Shown one piece after another: positions 1,702 to 12,769 of a stretch of DNA of 21,422 bases (position 1 is its first letter; the number at the start of each line of letters is the position of its first letter). A program made the position numbers and the translations under genes. The stretch is from a virus. The notes under the pieces were generated by a model that searched no databases, was not told where the DNA came from, and saw only the letters and a list, made by a program, of their open reading frames with translations. The DNA lies in IMG/VR virus record IMGVR_UViG_3300031774_000188, positions 1 to 21,422 of that record, one strand, 5' to 3'.

Positions 1702-2500
1702 CCAGAGGATTAAACAGCTTATAGATGGACTGCACCTAGATTTTAGTCAGAGTTTAACACTTAACTGCCCTGTCTGTGGTGGGTACAAGAAGTTCAGTGT
1801 GACTAACCTAGATGGAACAATAGTGTATAACTGTTACAGGAATAGCTGTGGCACTAAAGGAGCAGTGAAGACTACTATGACAAGTGAGCAAGTACAAAAG
1901 AAGATGAGATTAGCCCACGAAGCTAGAAAGAGAAGCCTAGACTTTGTATTACCTGAGTATATAACAGTAGATATTCTTAACACATCCATGAAAAGATTTA
2001 TCAATAGGTGGGGTCTACGAAATGTACGTTTATACTATGACGTTAAAGATAAACGAGCAGTGTTTCCTATCTTTGAAAACAACAAGATGGTAGGAGCTAT
2101 AGGTAGAGCTTTAAATAATATCTTTCCCAAGTGGTTACGTTACGACAAGACTGCTAATTACTATTCGCATGTACTAACTAGCGAATCATCTGTAGCTGTA
2201 GTAGTTGAAGACGTTATCTCAGCTACAGTACTAGCTCAAGAGATACCTCAAGTTACAGGTGTAGCGATTTTGGGTACATCGTTAAACGACAAACACAGGG
2301 AGTACTTAACTAAGTTTAAAAAGATAGTGATAGCTTTAGATCCAGATGCTGCAACTAAAACAATAGGTTACACTAAAGAGTTAAAGTCTTTTTGTGGAGA
2401 TAAGACATCAGTTTTAGCTTACAGATTAGAAGACGATATTAAATACAGGCGAGAAAACGACATCAATAACATAAAGGAGATAACTAATGAAAAAGTGTAG
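1694..2500 (+). CDS. DNA primase, zinc-finger plus Toprim (T7 gp4 primase-half type)
   Basis: It makes RNA primers for lagging-strand synthesis. The 268-residue product begins with a four-cysteine zinc-binding module (Cys25, Cys28, Cys47, Cys52) of the kind that recognises the priming trinucleotide in T7 gp4. A Toprim fold follows, with the catalytic glutamate Glu172 in VVVEDVISA and the metal-binding Asp216 and Asp218 in ALDPDAA. No helicase domain follows, so the T7 primase-helicase fusion is here two genes, the helicase being at 2987. ATG 1694 is preferred over an upstream in-frame start at 1649 because GAGGAG lies just before it and the extra residues lie wholly inside the integrase gene. 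It overlaps int by 8 bases and the next gene by 14. Confidence 0.92.
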   Translation: MSNQRIKQLIDGLHLDFSQSLTLNCPVCGGYKKFSVTNLDGTIVYNCYRNSCGTKGAVKTTMTSEQVQKKMRLAHEARKRSLDFVLPEYITVDILNTSMKRFINRWGLRNVRLYYDVKDKRAVFPIFENNKMVGAIGRALNNIFPKWLRYDKTANYYSHVLTSESSVAVVVEDVISATVLAQEIPQVTGVAILGTSLNDKHREYLTKFKKIVIALDPDAATKTIGYTKELKSFCGDKTSVLAYRLEDDIKYRRENDINNIKEITNEKV

Positions 2501-2990
2501 TACATGTGGAGAAACACTAGTTAAAGATGTAAATTGGACACATTCTAGGTATAATAAAGGTATTAATAAATGTAAATATTGTAATAGCGATGAAGGTAAT
2601 AAAGATAGGATGTGGGTAAACGGTGTTTACATACCTACAAGTCACCCAGATTGGAAAGCAGGGTATTATAAAGATTGGTCTAGTGTAGCTTTCTCTAATA
2701 TGAACAACTACAATAAAAAAACTGAAGGTGACGTATATGTTATTACAAACCCTGCATGGAAAAACTGGTATAAAATAGGTAAGGCAGTAGATGCAGAGGA
2801 TAGATGTAAAGGATACCAAACAAGTAGCCCACATAGAGACTACGAGCTAGTAAAAGTAATTCCTTGTGATGATAGGAATAGAGCAGAAATACTAGCCCAT
2901 AGAGCCGCAGAAAAAATATGTGTTGAAAAAAGAAACGAATGGTTCTATACTGAAAACTTAAATGAATTAATAGAAGGAATCACACCATGA
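2487..2990 (+). CDS. GIY-YIG superfamily nuclease-like protein (T5orf172/MUG113 type)
   Basis: The 167-residue product has two parts. Residues 1-35 contain a zinc-ribbon pattern (Cys4, Cys7, Cys29, Cys32). Residues 82-155 look like the T5orf172/MUG113 branch of the GIY-YIG nucleases. VYVITN (83-88) stands for GIY and YKIGKA (95-100) for YIG, with Arg106, an acidic AEILAH helix and NEWF near the end. GIY-YIG enzymes cut DNA, and several act as homing endonucleases. It lies between primase and helicase, the point at which the T7 fusion would be joined. It may be a mobile nuclease or a domesticated one. It has a strong AAGGAG site and overlaps both neighbours, so it is co-transcribed with them. 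Confidence 0.75.
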   Translation: MKKCSTCGETLVKDVNWTHSRYNKGINKCKYCNSDEGNKDRMWVNGVYIPTSHPDWKAGYYKDWSSVAFSNMNNYNKKTEGDVYVITNPAWKNWYKIGKAVDAEDRCKGYQTSSPHRDYELVKVIPCDDRNRAEILAHRAAEKICVEKRNEWFYTENLNELIEGITP

Positions 2991-4213
2991 TGGAATTAGC
3001 ACTAATTCGTAGTTTAATGAACAAGGACTTCTATGAAGACCACAAGGGTATACGTTGCCCAGATAAGCTGTTCACTAAAGATATACGGAAGATTAAGCAG
3101 ACAGTAGACTACGCAATGGAGAACTTTGAGAAAGACTTAACTGTATCGGAGTTGCAAGGTTTGTTTATGACTAGCAACAGTACAATGACTACAGCTACTA
3201 AAGAATCATATGACCAACTATTCAGTAAACTAGAACAGGAGAAGCCTATGTGTCAGGACATATCTAAGCAAGTATTTTCTAAATTGTTTCAACAGATGGT
3301 AGGCGAGGAAATAGCCAACTTAGGTTTTGACTACGTTAACGGTGACAAGAGTACACTAGAACCATTACGAGTATTACTAAACGACTACCACGATAACTTT
3401 TTACCTAACCTAAATGTTGAGTGGGAAGATATGAGCATAGACACACTACTTAAAGCTAACGCTATACAGAGCCAGTGGAAGTTTAACATACCTAGTTTGC
3501 AGAGAAAGGTGGAGGGTATTAGTGGAGGACATTTAGTTCTAATAGGAGCAAGACCTAACACAGGTAAGACTAGCTTCCACGCATCATTGATAGCTTCTAA
3601 AGATGGATTTGCAGAGCAAGGAGCTAAGTGTATTATCTTATGTAATGAAGAAGCATATGATAGGGTTGGAGCTAGGTATCTTTCAGCCGCTACAAATATG
3701 AGTATGGATGAGGTGCGTCAAAATGTCTCATTAGCTTCAGCTAGGTATCAGCCAGTTAAAGACAATGTATACGTTAAGGATACAACAGGAAAAGATATGG
3801 CTTGGGTTGAGGCAGTAGTTAAAGCTACTACACCTGACGTAGTAGTGTTAGATATGGGAGATAAGTTTGCTAACAGAACAGGAGAACGATCTGACATATA
3901 CTTAAAAGAATCAGCTATACACGCTAGAAACATAGCTAAACAATATAACTGTGCAATTCTGTGGATGTCACAACTATCAGCAGAAGCTGAAGGTAAAATT
4001 ATGGTAGATCAATCTATGCTTGAAGGTAGTAAGACAGGCAAGGCATCTGAGTCAGACTTGATGCTACTTATCAGTAAGAACCCTACTATAGAAGGACAAG
4101 AAAATGAAGATACAGAACGGCACATAGTTATAGCTAAGAATAAGCTTAAAGGTGGATGGCACGGTGTTGTCACTGTTCAGTTAGATGGAGAAAGAGCTAG
4201 GTTTACAGCATGA
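2987..4213 (+). CDS. Replicative DNA helicase, DnaB/gp4-like RecA-fold
   Basis: A hexameric 5'-3' helicase that unwinds DNA ahead of the phage polymerase. The 408-residue product has a helical N-terminal region (about 1-150) and a RecA-like motor. Walker A is GARPNTGKTS with Lys194, a Glu-rich ILCNEEA follows the next strand, Walker B is VVVLDMGD with Asp289, and WMSQLSAEAEGK is the H3-type sensor region. LEGSKTGKASESDLMLLIS matches the DnaB region that reaches the neighbouring subunit. It starts inside the nuclease stop (ATGATG) and ends in an ATGA overlap with the polymerase gene, so the genes are translationally coupled. Confidence 0.92.
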   Translation: MMELALIRSLMNKDFYEDHKGIRCPDKLFTKDIRKIKQTVDYAMENFEKDLTVSELQGLFMTSNSTMTTATKESYDQLFSKLEQEKPMCQDISKQVFSKLFQQMVGEEIANLGFDYVNGDKSTLEPLRVLLNDYHDNFLPNLNVEWEDMSIDTLLKANAIQSQWKFNIPSLQRKVEGISGGHLVLIGARPNTGKTSFHASLIASKDGFAEQGAKCIILCNEEAYDRVGARYLSAATNMSMDEVRQNVSLASARYQPVKDNVYVKDTTGKDMAWVEAVVKATTPDVVVLDMGDKFANRTGERSDIYLKESAIHARNIAKQYNCAILWMSQLSAEAEGKIMVDQSMLEGSKTGKASESDLMLLISKNPTIEGQENEDTERHIVIAKNKLKGGWHGVVTVQLDGERARFTA

Positions 4214-6261
4214 AGCTAATACTTGACGTAGAGAACACTACAACAAAACGAGATGGTAAGAATCATCTTGACCCTTTTGAGCCATCTAACACTCTAACTC
4301 AAGTGGGTGTTCTTAATGCACAGGGTAGCAAACCTCATGTGTTTACTTATGACCACACTGAGAAGCAAGACACTGATGGTTCGCAAAGGAAACAACTACA
4401 GGCTGTACTAGATAAAACGACACTCCTGATAGGACACAACTTACAGCACGACTTACAGTGGTTGTGGGCATGTGGGTTTAAGTACGATGGCACAGTGTAC
4501 GATACCATGTTAGCTGAATACTTATTACAAAGAGGACAAAAGAACTCTGTATCTCTTGAGGCTTGTGCAGATAGGTATGAACTAGGCTACCAGAAGCAAG
4601 ACACTCTAAAGAAATACTTTGCTGACGGATATAACACTAATGAGATACCATTGGCTGAGTTATCAGGTTACTTAGAGCAAGACCTGTATGTAACTAAATG
4701 TCTGTACCATAGGTTAGAGAAAGAGTATGAAGCTCCAGAGGCACAGTCTCTACTTGGAGTTAGGGATATAAACAATGACGTTTGTAAGACCCTTACTAAG
4801 ATGTACATGAGTGGCTTTAAGATAGACAAAGATGCCCTAGCTGAAGTGAGAAAGCAGTTTGAGACAGAACTAGCAGAGATAGAACAGAGATTAAACACTA
4901 CAGTAAAAACTATTATGGGTGACACTCCTATCAACCTTAACTCACCAGAACAAGTTAGCCAAGTAATATACTCTAGGAAGGTACGGAACAAAAAAGAATG
5001 GGCTGTGTTGTTTGATTATGTAAACACTAAGGATGAGTTTCTATCAGCATACAAGTCTAATAGTGACATGATGATGCGAACTAAGGCACACACATGTTTA
5101 AAGTGTAATGGCACTGGCAAGGTGCGTAAGACTAGAAAGGATGGGAAGCCTTTTGCCAAGCCTACTAAGTGTGACGCATGTGAAGCTAAAGGATACCTGT
5201 ACACTGAAACTAGCACTATGGCAGGGCTAGGCTTTGCACCTCCATCTAAGGATTGGGTGAGTGCCAATGGTTTTACTACCAGTAAAGGCAACTTAGAAAC
5301 GCTTATGTCAGCCGCTAAGAGTAAGAACATGGACACAGCATACGACTTCCTGTCTGATTTAAAGCGTCAGAGTGCTATCTCCAGTTACTTATCTAGCTTT
5401 GTTGAAGGCATACACAACTTCACTAAGCCTGATGGGTTACTCCATGTAGGTTTAACTCAGCACGTTACAGCTACAGGCAGGTTCTCAGGGCGAAACCCTA
5501 ACATGCAGAATATGCCTAGAGGAGGTACGTTCCCTGTTAAGCGAGTATTTGTATCCAGATGGAATGGAGGTAAGATTATAGAGGCTGACTTTGCACAGCT
5601 AGAGTTTAGAGTTGCCGCTTTGTTATCTCAAGACCAGACAGCTATGAAAGAAGTTGAGACAGGCTTTGATGTTCATAGCTATACAGCTAAAGTTATATCT
5701 GATGCAGGTCAACCAACATCACGACAAGAAGCTAAAGCTCATACCTTTGCACCGTTGTACGGAGCTACAGGGTACGGCAGGAGTAAAGCAGAGGCTGAGT
5801 ACTACACTCACTTTACATCTAAGTATAAGGGGATAGCTAAGTGGCACAAGAAGCTAGGCAATGAAGCTATTAACTTAGGCAAAATAACTACACCTTCAGG
5901 AAGACAATATGCGTTTCCTGATGTAGAGAGAAGGACTAATGGCAACCCTTCTCATTTCACTATGATTAAGAACTACCCTGTACAAGGCTTTGCTACAGGA
6001 GATATAGTTCCTATCGTACTCCTAGAGATAGAGAAGCGTTTAGATATAGACGGATTAAATAGTCTACTAGTAAACACAGTTCACGATTCTGTGGTGATAG
6101 ATGTCCATCCATCTGAGGAGAAAGCAGTCTTGGGGATAATCCAAGAAATAAATGACAAGTTGTCTGACATAATTGAATCGTACTACGATATAGATATTAA
6201 CGTGCCAATGTTACTAGAAGCTAAGATGGGTAATAATTGGCTTGACACTGTTGATATTTAG
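4210..6261 (+). CDS. Family A DNA polymerase with 3'-5' exonuclease and inserted DnaJ-type zinc segment
   Basis: This is the replicative polymerase, 683 residues, near the size of T7 gp5. The DEDDy exonuclease occupies about residues 1-200: Asp6 and Glu8 (LDVENT), Asp81 (GHNLQHDL), Tyr154 and Asp158 (YLEQD). Polymerase motifs follow: motif A ADFAQLEFR with Asp460, motif B with Arg505, Lys509, Phe513 and Tyr517 (RQEAKAHTFAPLYG), and motif C VHDS with Asp626. Phe513 aligns with E. coli Pol I Phe762. Between the two domains, residues 296-328 carry CLKCNGTGK and CDACEAKG, that is CX2CXGXG and CX2CX3G, two of the four repeats of the DnaJ central domain. This arrangement is known to me from SAR116 phage HMO-2011 and is the best clue to phage type. 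A promoter overlaps the end of the gene. Confidence 0.95.
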   Translation: MKLILDVENTTTKRDGKNHLDPFEPSNTLTQVGVLNAQGSKPHVFTYDHTEKQDTDGSQRKQLQAVLDKTTLLIGHNLQHDLQWLWACGFKYDGTVYDTMLAEYLLQRGQKNSVSLEACADRYELGYQKQDTLKKYFADGYNTNEIPLAELSGYLEQDLYVTKCLYHRLEKEYEAPEAQSLLGVRDINNDVCKTLTKMYMSGFKIDKDALAEVRKQFETELAEIEQRLNTTVKTIMGDTPINLNSPEQVSQVIYSRKVRNKKEWAVLFDYVNTKDEFLSAYKSNSDMMMRTKAHTCLKCNGTGKVRKTRKDGKPFAKPTKCDACEAKGYLYTETSTMAGLGFAPPSKDWVSANGFTTSKGNLETLMSAAKSKNMDTAYDFLSDLKRQSAISSYLSSFVEGIHNFTKPDGLLHVGLTQHVTATGRFSGRNPNMQNMPRGGTFPVKRVFVSRWNGGKIIEADFAQLEFRVAALLSQDQTAMKEVETGFDVHSYTAKVISDAGQPTSRQEAKAHTFAPLYGATGYGRSKAEAEYYTHFTSKYKGIAKWHKKLGNEAINLGKITTPSGRQYAFPDVERRTNGNPSHFTMIKNYPVQGFATGDIVPIVLLEIEKRLDIDGLNSLLVNTVHDSVVIDVHPSEEKAVLGIIQEINDKLSDIIESYYDIDINVPMLLEAKMGNNWLDTVDI

Positions 6262-9886: not shown

Positions 9887-10047
9887 AGTTCAAGGTATTT
9901 ATGACATTAGAGGTAGACCCTGAAGAGAACGTACTATCTATTGATGAAGATGGTCAAACAGAAAGTGTACAAGAACTAATAGAAACATTAATGTTTGACG
10001 CAGATGGAGTAGAAATTAAAAACATAAAGGTGACAAGCCATGAATAA
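9883..10047 (+). CDS. Small acidic hypothetical protein (54 aa)
   Basis: This short frame fills the gap between the MazG-like gene and ribonucleotide reductase. It starts in an ATGA overlap with the former and ends 8 bases inside the latter (ATGAATAA). The product begins MKFKVFMTLEVDPEEN and ends DGVEIKNIKVTSHE, reading as a small alpha-beta protein with two edge strands. Comparable short proteins with 'VDPEE ... D.DGV.I..I.V' occur in marine phages from memory, function unknown. The double overlap and lack of any other gene there make it very likely real. Confidence 0.8.
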   Translation: MKFKVFMTLEVDPEENVLSIDEDGQTESVQELIETLMFDADGVEIKNIKVTSHE

Positions 10048-11947
10048 CGCATTACCAACAGACTATCAAAACTTTATTGCAACATCTCGTTACGCTAGAT
10101 GGTTAGATGAAGAACAAAAGAGAGAAACATGGAGTGAGACTGTATCTCGCTATGTAGATTATATATCTGACAGAGCAGGTTTAGATTACGATACACCTGA
10201 AGAATTGTGGGATGCTATACATAAGCTAGACGTTATGCCTAGTATGAGAGCCTTAATGACAGCAGGAGCAGCTTTAGACAGAGATAACACAGCAGGATAT
10301 AACTGTAGTTACCTCCCTGTAGATGATCCTAAGTCTTTTGATGAAGCTATGTATATACTACTATGTGGTACAGGTGTAGGCTTTTCTGTAGAGAGGCAGT
10401 ATGTAAATAAGCTACCTGACATACCTAACGAGTTAGAAGAGTGCGATACAACTATAGTAGTAGCTGACAGCAAAGAAGGTTGGGCAAAGGCTCTACGGAA
10501 AGTAATAGGACATCTCTACATGGGTGAGATACCTACATGGGATGTATCTAAAGTTAGACCTGCAGGTGCTAGGCTAAAGATATTCGGTGGTAGGGCAAGT
10601 GGACCTGCACCTCTAGTTGATCTGTTTAACTTCACAGTTAATATGTTTAAAGCTAACATAGGACGTAAGCTTTCTAGCTACGATTGTCACTCTTTAATGT
10701 GTAAGATAGGTGAGATTGTAGTTGTAGGTGGTGTTAGACGATCAGCTATGATTAGTTTATCTAACCTGAGTGACATACGAATGAGACACGCTAAGTCAGG
10801 CAAGTGGTGGGAAAACGCACCACACATGGCTCTAAGTAACAACTCAGTAGCTTACACTGATAAGCCTGACGGTGAGACATTTCTTAGGGAGTGGTCTAGT
10901 TTAGTTGAATCTAAGTCAGGTGAGCGAGGCATATTCAACAGAGTGTCAGCTAAGAAGCAAGTCGAGAAGCATGGACGCAGAGATTCTAACCATGAGTTCG
11001 GTACTAACCCTTGCAGTGAGATTATACTTAGACCTTACCAGTTCTGTAACTTGACAGAAGTTGTAGTTAGAGCAGAAGATAATATAGATACGTTAGCTAG
11101 AAAGGTTGAGCTTGCTACTATACTAGGTACAGTGCAATCTACATTGACTAACTTTCCTTATCTAAGGAAGATATGGAAGCACAACACAGAAGAAGAAAGA
11201 CTGTTAGGTGTATCTCTTACAGGTATCATGGACAACCCTTTAACTAACGGCACTAAAAATGGCTTAGAGCAAGCGTTAGAACACTTGCGTAACGTAGCTA
11301 TTAAGACTAATGCTGAGTGGTCACAGAAGCTAGGAGTACCTATGTCTGCTGCTATAACTTGTGTTAAACCTAGTGGCACAGTGTCACAACTAGTGGACAG
11401 TGCATCAGGCATACACGCTAGACACAGTAAGTACTATATTAGAACTGTAAGAGGTGACAACAAAGATCCACTTACACAGTTTATGATAGAGCAAGGTATA
11501 CCATCTGAACCTGACGTTACTAAGCCTAATGACACGACTGTATTTAGCTTCCCTGTTAAGTCTCCTGAAGGAAGCGTTGTCAGAGCCGATTTAACAGCCG
11601 TACAGCAGCTAGAAATGTGGCTGACGTACCAGAGGCACTGGTGTGAACATAAGCCTTCAGTGACGGTTTCTGTAAGAGATGACGAGTGGATGGAAGTTGG
11701 TGCGTTTGTCTTTGAACACTTCGATGAGATGTCAGGTGTATCATTCTTGCCACACTCAGACCATTCGTATCAACAAGCACCATATCAAGAGTGTACGGAA
11801 GGTGAGTACGGTATAATGAAAGAGATGATGCCTGACAGCATTAACTGGTCAAAGCTATCTGAATATGAAAAAGTAGACACAACAGCAGGTAATCAGACAT
11901 TCGCTTGTACTGGTGACATCTGTGAAATAGTAGATATAGGAGCTTAA
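10040..11947 (+). CDS. Class II (adenosylcobalamin-dependent) ribonucleotide reductase, monomeric
   Basis: It converts ribonucleotides to deoxyribonucleotides for phage DNA synthesis. The 635-residue product resembles the monomeric class II enzyme of Lactobacillus leichmannii. The buried reducing pair is Cys89 (AGYNCSYLPV) and Cys336 (PYQFCNLTEV). The thiyl-radical site is Cys325 with Asn323 and Glu327 in NPCSEI. Cys325 and Cys336 are 11 apart, as are C408 and C419 in the reference enzyme. The C-terminal shuttle pair Cys623 and Cys628 (CTGDIC) has the same spacing as C731 and C736. Glycine-rich CGTGVGFSVER is also present. No small radical subunit gene (nrdB) or NrdG-type activase is visible in the window, consistent with use of coenzyme B12. 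The enzyme would depend on host cobalamin. Confidence 0.93.
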   Translation: MNNALPTDYQNFIATSRYARWLDEEQKRETWSETVSRYVDYISDRAGLDYDTPEELWDAIHKLDVMPSMRALMTAGAALDRDNTAGYNCSYLPVDDPKSFDEAMYILLCGTGVGFSVERQYVNKLPDIPNELEECDTTIVVADSKEGWAKALRKVIGHLYMGEIPTWDVSKVRPAGARLKIFGGRASGPAPLVDLFNFTVNMFKANIGRKLSSYDCHSLMCKIGEIVVVGGVRRSAMISLSNLSDIRMRHAKSGKWWENAPHMALSNNSVAYTDKPDGETFLREWSSLVESKSGERGIFNRVSAKKQVEKHGRRDSNHEFGTNPCSEIILRPYQFCNLTEVVVRAEDNIDTLARKVELATILGTVQSTLTNFPYLRKIWKHNTEEERLLGVSLTGIMDNPLTNGTKNGLEQALEHLRNVAIKTNAEWSQKLGVPMSAAITCVKPSGTVSQLVDSASGIHARHSKYYIRTVRGDNKDPLTQFMIEQGIPSEPDVTKPNDTTVFSFPVKSPEGSVVRADLTAVQQLEMWLTYQRHWCEHKPSVTVSVRDDEWMEVGAFVFEHFDEMSGVSFLPHSDHSYQQAPYQECTEGEYGIMKEMMPDSINWSKLSEYEKVDTTAGNQTFACTGDICEIVDIGA

Positions 11948-11948
11948 T

Positions 11949-12143
11949 ATGAAAAGTGCATACGATAGAGGTTTTAATGTCTTTTGGAAAGGTTATATGG
12001 ATAACTCAGGCATAAATCTTAAACCTAATCCCTATAAGACACACACAAACGGACACCGTGAGTGGGAGCGTGGCTTCAATGCTGCCTATTTTAAGAGACT
12101 GCAAAGGGTCATAGACAATGAAACAAGAAGAAGAGAAACTTAG
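11949..12143 (+). CDS. Rmf-like (ribosome modulation factor family) small protein
   Basis: The 64-residue basic product starts one base after the reductase stop, with GGAG in the end of that gene as ribosome binding site. Its layout is AYDRGF, a tryptophan-glycine segment, NPYKTH, then REWERGFNAAY. This parallels E. coli Rmf, which has RGY, then CPYQ, then a tryptophan and GWREA, although the spacer before the PY element is about six residues longer here. Rmf pairs ribosomes into inactive 100S dimers, and CrpP-like relatives exist. A phage copy could act on host ribosomes, or be a small DNA- or RNA-binding protein with the same fold. The family call is by pattern only. Confidence 0.6.
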   Translation: MKSAYDRGFNVFWKGYMDNSGINLKPNPYKTHTNGHREWERGFNAAYFKRLQRVIDNETRRRET

Positions 12144-12270
12144 AAGAGAGGTTGAGAAATTCTATAAAGACAAGAAGACTAAAGAAACTAGTAGCTTACA
12201 ACAAGAAGCAGATGACTTTATGAACAGGAAGACAAGAGATGGGCAAGAGAAGCAACTTCGACAGGATTGA
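12118..12270 (+). CDS. Small highly charged helical protein (50 aa)
   Basis: This frame begins inside the end of the Rmf-like gene and ends 32 bases inside the methyltransferase gene, filling the space between them. The product is almost all charged or glutamine residues (MKQEEEKLRREVEKFYKDKK at its start), suggesting a single helix or short coiled coil. The ribosome binding site is weak (AAAGGG). No family recognised. The long overlap with the next gene makes it less certain than other small frames here. Confidence 0.5.
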   Translation: MKQEEEKLRREVEKFYKDKKTKETSSLQQEADDFMNRKTRDGQEKQLRQD

Positions 12271-12769
12271 ACGAGACTTTTACCCTACACCTGAAGAAGC
12301 ATTTTTACCTTTAGTGGAGCATTTACCTAAAACTAAATTCTATTACTTAGAGCCTTGTGCAGGTGATGGAGCTTTAGTTAAATGGATAAATAAGCACACT
12401 AAAGGTAAGGGTGTAGTGTACAGTGACATTGAGCCTCAACAAGAGTGGATACAAACTAAAGATATGTTTAAGGTGTCTACTCCTCCAACTAATGCAACAA
12501 CATTTGTAATCACAAACCCACCTTGGACTAGGAGTATATTGCATCTAGCCATAGATCATTTCGCTATGCAGTGTCCTACTTGGTTGCTATTTGATGCTGA
12601 TTGGTGTCACACAAAGCAAAGCCAACCCTACATGGATTGGCTCGTTAAGATTGTTAGTGTTGGAAGGGTGAAGTGGATACCTGATAGTAAGATGACAGGC
12701 AAGGATAACTGTTGTTGGTATCTATTTGATTCTACTAATAAAGCTGTGACTGAGTTCTATGGACGTTAG
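12239..12769 (+). CDS. DNA adenine-N6 methyltransferase-like protein
   Basis: A SAM-dependent methyltransferase of 176 residues. FYPTP (14-18) is the usual N-terminal element before motif I, EPCAGDGA (38-45) is the SAM-binding loop, and NPPW (93-96) is the catalytic motif IV of amino-methyltransferases that modify adenine N6. No recognition domain or partner restriction enzyme is present, so it is an orphan enzyme that may protect the phage genome from host restriction or tune gene expression. It is short for a Dam-type enzyme. A glutamine- or RNA-directed activity cannot be excluded, as NPPX motifs are shared. Its stop overlaps the stop of the convergent gene. Confidence 0.78.
   Translation: MGKRSNFDRIERDFYPTPEEAFLPLVEHLPKTKFYYLEPCAGDGALVKWINKHTKGKGVVYSDIEPQQEWIQTKDMFKVSTPPTNATTFVITNPPWTRSILHLAIDHFAMQCPTWLLFDADWCHTKQSQPYMDWLVKIVSVGRVKWIPDSKMTGKDNCCWYLFDSTNKAVTEFYGR

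Follow-up and report, generated by a model that had tools for sequence, protein, structure and literature searches.

A conserved 64-residue protein of an HMO-2011-type marine phage, its predicted Rmf/CrpP-like fold, and the apparent loss of the RNA-contacting residues of ribosome modulation factor

Does a marine phage encode its own ribosome modulation factor (RMF), able to park host ribosomes as 100S dimers, or has the fold of this protein been reused for another role? The question is raised by a 64-aa open reading frame (ORF) in the window, the whole stretch of 21,422 bases of viral DNA that was analysed. A preliminary description had likened its product to RMF because of an RGF, NPY and W-RGF-AA motif order combined with a longer spacer. 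Both features are present: the order is R7-G8-F9, N27-P28-Y29 and W39-E40-R41-G42-F43-N44-A45-A46, and the spacer from G15 to N27 spans 12 positions, instead of the six from G23 to C29 in E. coli RMF, many relatives being short in this region. Literature searches of titles and the starts of abstracts, covering HMO-2011-type phages and phage RMF, returned no study of this protein, and most small genes of these phages are still blank.

The ORF is a real gene. The 64-aa ORF adjoins the ORF of a class II ribonucleotide reductase, which ends at 11947; the smaller ORF starts one base past that stop, exactly where the preliminary description had placed it (Table 1). The AGGAG ahead of the start is likewise found upstream of the gene in two relatives (L003 and L004). 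The surrounding fragment can be assigned to an HMO-2011-type marine phage, because its family A DNA polymerase is 58-65% identical to those of HMO-2011, CRP-1, CRP-2, CRP-207, CRP-345 and CRP-603, and contains an inserted DnaJ domain (DnaJ_CXXCXGXG at residues 290-332, E 8e-5, under the model's own cut-off), which is a stated hallmark of HMO-2011-type polymerases according to PMC9038755. According to the same source, phages of this type dominate in the ocean and have a broad distribution there. The window also encodes a tyrosine integrase, a Toprim primase, a DnaB-type helicase, phage endonuclease I, a DUF3310 protein and, from PHROGs, a MazG-type pyrophosphohydrolase, such that the 64-aa gene sits in a run of replication and nucleotide-metabolism genes, straight after the reductase. 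The MUG113/T5orf172 domain encoded between primase and helicase is presumably of the GIY-YIG type. Scans of the whole window against Rfam and for tRNAs gave no matches. Among the matches listed, the 50-aa ORF that overlaps the gene at its 3' end is present in five of the 166 loci compared, and is therefore specific to the window's close relatives; the methyltransferase-like product beyond it looks half-length for such an enzyme, given its partial phrog_799 alignment. Near the 64-aa ORF, one promoter-like site (3.5 in shuffles) and two terminator-like sites (0.7 in shuffles, sd 0.8) were counted, and these counts were used for no conclusion.

Table 1. Positions in the window of the 64-aa gene, its motifs and selected neighbouring features
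Feature	Position	Strand	Basis or note
167-aa protein with MUG113/T5orf172 domain, between primase and helicase	2487-2990	+	also matches PADLOC candidate PDC-S57, E 8e-9
Family A DNA polymerase with inserted partial DnaJ central domain	4210-6261	+	domain search
Class II (B12-dependent) ribonucleotide reductase, upstream neighbour	10040-11947	+	PF02867, PF21995, PF17975; phrog_367 E 5e-185
AGGAG, likely Shine-Dalgarno sequence, within the 3' end of the reductase gene, 6 nt ahead of the ATG	11938-11942	+	sequence
64-aa ORF, Rmf/CrpP-like-fold protein (predicted)	11949-12143	+	ORF list; relatives; AlphaFold
Gly8 codon, equivalent to RMF G16; Gly in 111/111 family members	11970-11972	+	alignment
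Asn27-Pro28-Tyr29 loop motif, equivalent to RMF C29-P30-Y31	12027-12035	+	alignment
HREWERGFNAAY, start of the long second helix, equivalent to RMF R37 to about M48	12054-12089	+	alignment, AlphaFold
Highly charged ORF of 50 aa that overlaps the Rmf-like gene at its 3' end	12118-12270	+	ORF list
176-aa methyltransferase-like protein	12239-12769	+	phrog_799 positions 201-369 of 458; PADLOC MTase_II E 1e-5

The gene is not confined to this fragment. Relatives of the 64-aa protein were found by tblastn in nine phage records, and the seven regions opened comprised six HMO-2011-like genomes, with the gene downstream of the reductase, and a Yersinia phage. Two pattern scans of IMG/VR, the first using [HY][RK]EW[EQN]RG[FY] and the second other patterns, with at least 80 loci each, located relatives in at least 160 loci, encoding at least 112 distinct proteins. 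The invariance of E38, W39, R41 and G42 in the half of the family from the first scan is forced, because that pattern was used for retrieval; among the named tblastn hits that were aligned, E-W-x-R-G is also kept, the Yersinia phage (EWKHG) being the exception. Searching 12 named phages with the 33-row profile A4 detected the family in seven (CRP-345, HMO-2011, CRP-1, ctYwJ313, CRP-212, CRP-3 and CRP-235), and detected no copy in CRP-603, CRP-2, CRP-207, HTVC033P or CRP-738. Hence the family is conserved, but not universal. Three of the carriers encode proteins annotated as hypothetical (HMO-2011 gp20, CRP-345 gp38 and CRP-1 gp29) of the same family in the same module, with 36-42% identity to the window protein, which differ from it in having an N-terminal KYDAPL-type arm. 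In relatives down to about 29-40% identity, motif order and genomic place are unchanged. Among the matches listed, the median dN/dS was 0.19, and the ratio was below 1 in all 1594 of 1594 pairs with dS of 0.15-1.5; the family is under purifying selection. With order and place kept in distant relatives, and no pair reaching a dN/dS of 1, the motif pattern of the window protein exceeds chance.

Whether this pattern reflects kinship with RMF had to be judged largely from the family, as the individual protein provides little signal. In hmmscan searches, the window protein had no match to Pfam or NCBIfam even at E 10, and none to PADLOC; it had two weak matches to unnamed PHROGs families (0.039 and 0.047), while a phmmer search of the PDB with this single protein as the query returned a photosystem chain as its sole match (E 0.27). 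Four of the ten members of family profile A2 weakly matched Pfam RMF (best E 0.0056), and three of the ten the NCBIfam Rmf_CrpP_fam model NF041886 (best E 0.034). Over whole records, PF04957 matched five of six named carriers, none of six IMG/VR records and not the one Yersinia phage in a first set; neither the one further carrier nor any of five non-carrier relatives in a second; and seven of 18 IMG/VR carriers, one of which was already in the first set, in a third. In total, 12 of 30 distinct carriers had one match each, always on this gene when coordinates were compared. The window's own record had none, and the cut-off of 27.9 bits was exceeded in none of the 13, six and 18 records searched. 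The profile check put forward in the preliminary description thus gave sub-threshold matches on the gene in some relatives, but nothing for the window and nothing above the cut-off. Used against the PDB, the ten-row A2 profile ranked RMF first (E 0.039); the A4 profile did not find RMF at E 10, returning mS31 and NucC at E of at least 1, which counts against a superfamily link. A scan of genome contigs with A4 gave ten pattern matches and no relatives, and a tblastn search of phages with E. coli RMF as the query returned 15 records, each with E of at least 1 and none of the HMO-2011 type.

Profile-profile comparison located the family within the wider group. The bacterial comparison set consisted of 58 PF04957-type sequences plus E. 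coli RMF, 59 in all; it was gathered with PF04957 itself, and includes six loci and others below or near the cut-off of that model. With the 28-row phage family profile A3 as the query, hhalign assigned 89.3% probability to a match with all 59 (score 30.7), 91.5% to a match with the 28 non-Rmf members (score 32.6), and 5.7% to a match with the 31 true-Rmf members (score 17.3), this last being inside the range of column-permuted decoys, for which the maximum was 19.0 in 200 permutations for the full set and 15.5 in 200 for the 28 non-Rmf members. These 28 were labelled "CrpP-like", though the set holds no CrpP reference sequence, and bacterial PF04957 relatives outside true Rmf are uncharacterised. 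By these scores, the family profile would lie near the wider Rmf/CrpP-like set, and not near true Rmf. The Rmf/CrpP family (NF041886) and the bacterial PF04957 relatives share with the phage proteins the motif order G...G...(N/C)PY...W..G(W/F/Y), whereas the phage lineage has E-W-x-R-G-F-N and F12.

The second half of the family name suggests an enzymatic role. CrpP is reportedly a 65-aa ciprofloxacin-modifying enzyme, and therefore the phage protein could itself be an enzyme that modifies small molecules. NCBIfam groups Rmf with CrpP, and the phage profile is most similar to non-Rmf bacterial members, in a set without a CrpP reference. However, the preliminary description's suggested check of CrpP-like families yielded only the weak NF041886 matches of the A2 members, the same model having no matches over 14 records; crpP-like genes are not always tied to resistance (according to PMC7918633); and an antibiotic-modifying role would be hard to explain in a marine phage's replication module. 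Such an enzyme is therefore the most improbable of the roles considered here.

Predicted structures agree with the sequence comparisons. AlphaFold2 models the window protein (pLDDT 88.9) as a small helix-loop-helix, with helices at 4-13 and 34-63. Its two helices and loop are predicted to pack as in 2jrm and 6h4n, with modest E and Z values. Among 350,542 PDB chains, Foldseek ranked E. coli RMF first (6h4n_v, E 3.6, TM 0.49/0.56). In a second structural comparison, V. parahaemolyticus RMF (2jrm; Z 4.6, rmsd 3.9, 52 aligned) and 6h4n (Z 4.5, rmsd 3.2, 47 aligned) were the only two of six chains with Z of at least 2. A divergent relative, L083, was modelled with pLDDT 80.5; Foldseek ranks 1 and 2 were RMF, and three RMF entries headed the second comparison (Z 6.2 with rmsd 2.3 and 52 aligned, 5.9 and 5.7), followed by an unrelated chain at Z 4.5, with ten of 41 chains at Z of at least 2. 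Families absent from these second-comparison tables are not thereby excluded. RMF was therefore the top PDB match for both models, in line with the structural test that had been proposed against E. coli Rmf. The Foldseek E values of 1.6-3.6 for both models are by themselves not significant, and the Z values are middling; it is the agreement of the structure matches with the sequence evidence that carries weight. In BFVD, many phage proteins have a similar shape, and two are named ribosome modulation factor: A0A0F7ING3 of Delftia phage IME-DE1 (prob 0.47) and A0A8S5UIL5 of Myoviridae ctu2j3 (prob 0.75). These resemble the window protein in predicted fold, the only feature compared, but belong to other phages, match with E above 0.5, and have names that are database annotation.

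Two-helix hairpins are common and short, and with Foldseek E above 1 and middling Z the likeness to RMF might be convergent. This is nevertheless a rather unlikely account, as RMF was picked by sequence and by structure alike, Gly, Pro and Trp residues fall at the same places as in RMF, and decoys (200 for each of two sets) reached no more than 19.0 compared with the 30.7 observed. Instead, the sub-threshold PF04957 matches, the hhalign probability of 89% and the ranking of RMF first by the AlphaFold models argue that the resemblance is genuine, reflecting a shared superfamily and fold. Hence the protein very probably belongs to the broad Rmf/CrpP-like superfamily, and the likeness first noticed stands as fold and remote homology, but not as a match of the window protein alone to any Pfam or NCBIfam model.

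Membership of the superfamily does not imply the activity of RMF. Like RMF (PF04957; PDB 6h4n, 9iot and 2jrm), the window protein is small and basic, has two helices joined by a loop in its predicted model, and keeps the packing core of G16, G23, P30, W40 and G43, with an aromatic residue, Phe, at W44. Unlike RMF, it is encoded by a phage gene, falls under every curated cut-off, has a longer second helix (34-63), and has nothing aligned to RMF residues 1-8, and hence no R3/K5 arm, while R11 is replaced by Ser, C29 by Asn and R45 by Asn. In the family (n = 111, after dropping the 56-aa contig-end fragment L167 and counting L020, identical to the window protein, once as the window), G16, P30, W40 and G43 are each found in 111 of 111 members among the matches listed, the W40 and G43 counts being partly forced by the first search pattern, with F or Y at W44 in 109 and G23 in 68. 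In the same matches, Arg is found in none of the 111 at either R11 or R45, and C29 is never Cys. According to Yoshida et al. 2021 (PMC8126665), dimer formation by E. coli RMF is abolished by R3A, K5A, R11A, G16A and G23A, likewise by C29A, P30A, W40A, G43A and W44A, and nearly abolished by R45A, while removal of the five N-terminal residues abolishes ribosome binding; work cited there has R3 and K5 touching helix 28, and R45, the contact to the anti-Shine-Dalgarno sequence, touching C1536. With the packing core kept and counterparts of R3, K5, R11 and R45 missing, the scaffold appears to have been retained and the known RNA grip of RMF lost.

A true phage Rmf would bind the host 70S ribosome at the anti-Shine-Dalgarno end of 16S rRNA and make 100S dimers. 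The predicted fold and the core Gly, Pro and Trp positions fit such a protein, but the counterparts of R3, K5, R11, C29 and R45 are absent, the profile match to true Rmf fails, and the PF04957 cut-off was not reached in any of the 13, six and 18 records. Furthermore, RMF is described from gammaproteobacteria (according to PMC8126665 and PMC8778775), whereas the hosts of the phage isolates are alphaproteobacteria; Caulobacter, one of 14 control genomes, had no PF04957 match at E 0.001. A true Rmf is accordingly a very unlikely identity for the protein. As the true-Rmf comparison fails (5.7%) and R3, K5, R11, C29 and R45 are absent, we infer that the protein is not an Rmf orthologue, and formation of 100S dimers by it seems highly improbable; the dimer-parking role proposed at the outset loses its footing with the same residues and profile. 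The alternative also voiced then, reuse of the fold, fits no worse, given the loss of the rRNA-contacting residues and the profile's greater closeness to non-Rmf members.

The main rival among target-binding roles is reuse of the fold as a protein-binding accessory of DNA or nucleotide metabolism, with a phage or host nucleotide-metabolism protein as its partner, for example the reductase or replication proteins. Among the matches listed, 159 loci extend 1.5 kb or more upstream of the gene, and in 133 of these the reductase precedes it on the same strand. F12, E38, R41 and N44 are family-specific positions absent from E. coli RMF. However, the distance between the two genes ranges from 5 to about 2100 bases among the matches listed, with other genes between them, and therefore adjacency may only reflect a stable module. 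In addition, CRP-603, CRP-2 and CRP-207 are the three closest polymerase relatives, yet have no detectable copy, even though CRP-603 has a reductase. An accessory role is on balance somewhat unlikely.

The best single guess, a tentative one, is instead that the target is the host ribosome or another RNA, because binding of this kind is what the fold is known for, and because the protein is basic. Its net charge is +6, and the family median is +11 among the matches listed; in these matches, most relatives have an N-terminal basic arm (median 18 aa, charge +4), which is missing in the window lineage (six of 111 without an arm). To our knowledge, ribosome binding by RMF is the only experimentally characterised function of the fold that has structures. 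It is the function with structures that PMC8126665 describes. The leading explanation overall, with function deduced and its odds still short of even, is a hairpin that docks on the host translation machinery, or on other RNA or protein, and makes no 100S dimers. The protein would be made together with the replication proteins, and would act by docking its hairpin onto a host target, most likely the translation machinery, at the 30S platform or another structured RNA. Translation would then be altered without 100S dimers forming. Any ribosome interface would have to differ from that of RMF. Binding of host ribosomes by phage proteins at an early stage of infection has been described (PMC10914614), and a term search of the available text of that source finds no mention of RMF.

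A broader and more doubtful conjecture is that one of the most widespread groups of marine phages carries a dedicated RMF-fold protein, which may contact the 30S subunit of the host by a new interface (E38/R41/N44, joined in most relatives by the basic arm), and thereby steer or silence translation in alphaproteobacteria that themselves lack a use for RMF. Because the best-known member of the fold controls ribosomes, the conserved gene offers a concrete and cheap host-takeover hypothesis, and the set of kept and lost residues makes it testable whether the Rmf/CrpP fold is a ribosome-binding fold or a multi-target scaffold.

The gene can also escape annotation. In CRP-3, CRP-212 and ctYwJ313, the Rmf-like reading frame (L012:2986-3171, L011:2986-3180 and L009:3956-4156, respectively) is unannotated, and the annotation lists later coding sequences elsewhere or in another frame instead. 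Separately, the same motif order occurs in Yersinia phage fHe-Yen8-01 (L010:2971-3168) and Pseudomonas phage Ep020 (H7), with E 0.3-0.8; these are other phages, of about 92-98 kb, and their proteins point to wider phage use of the fold.
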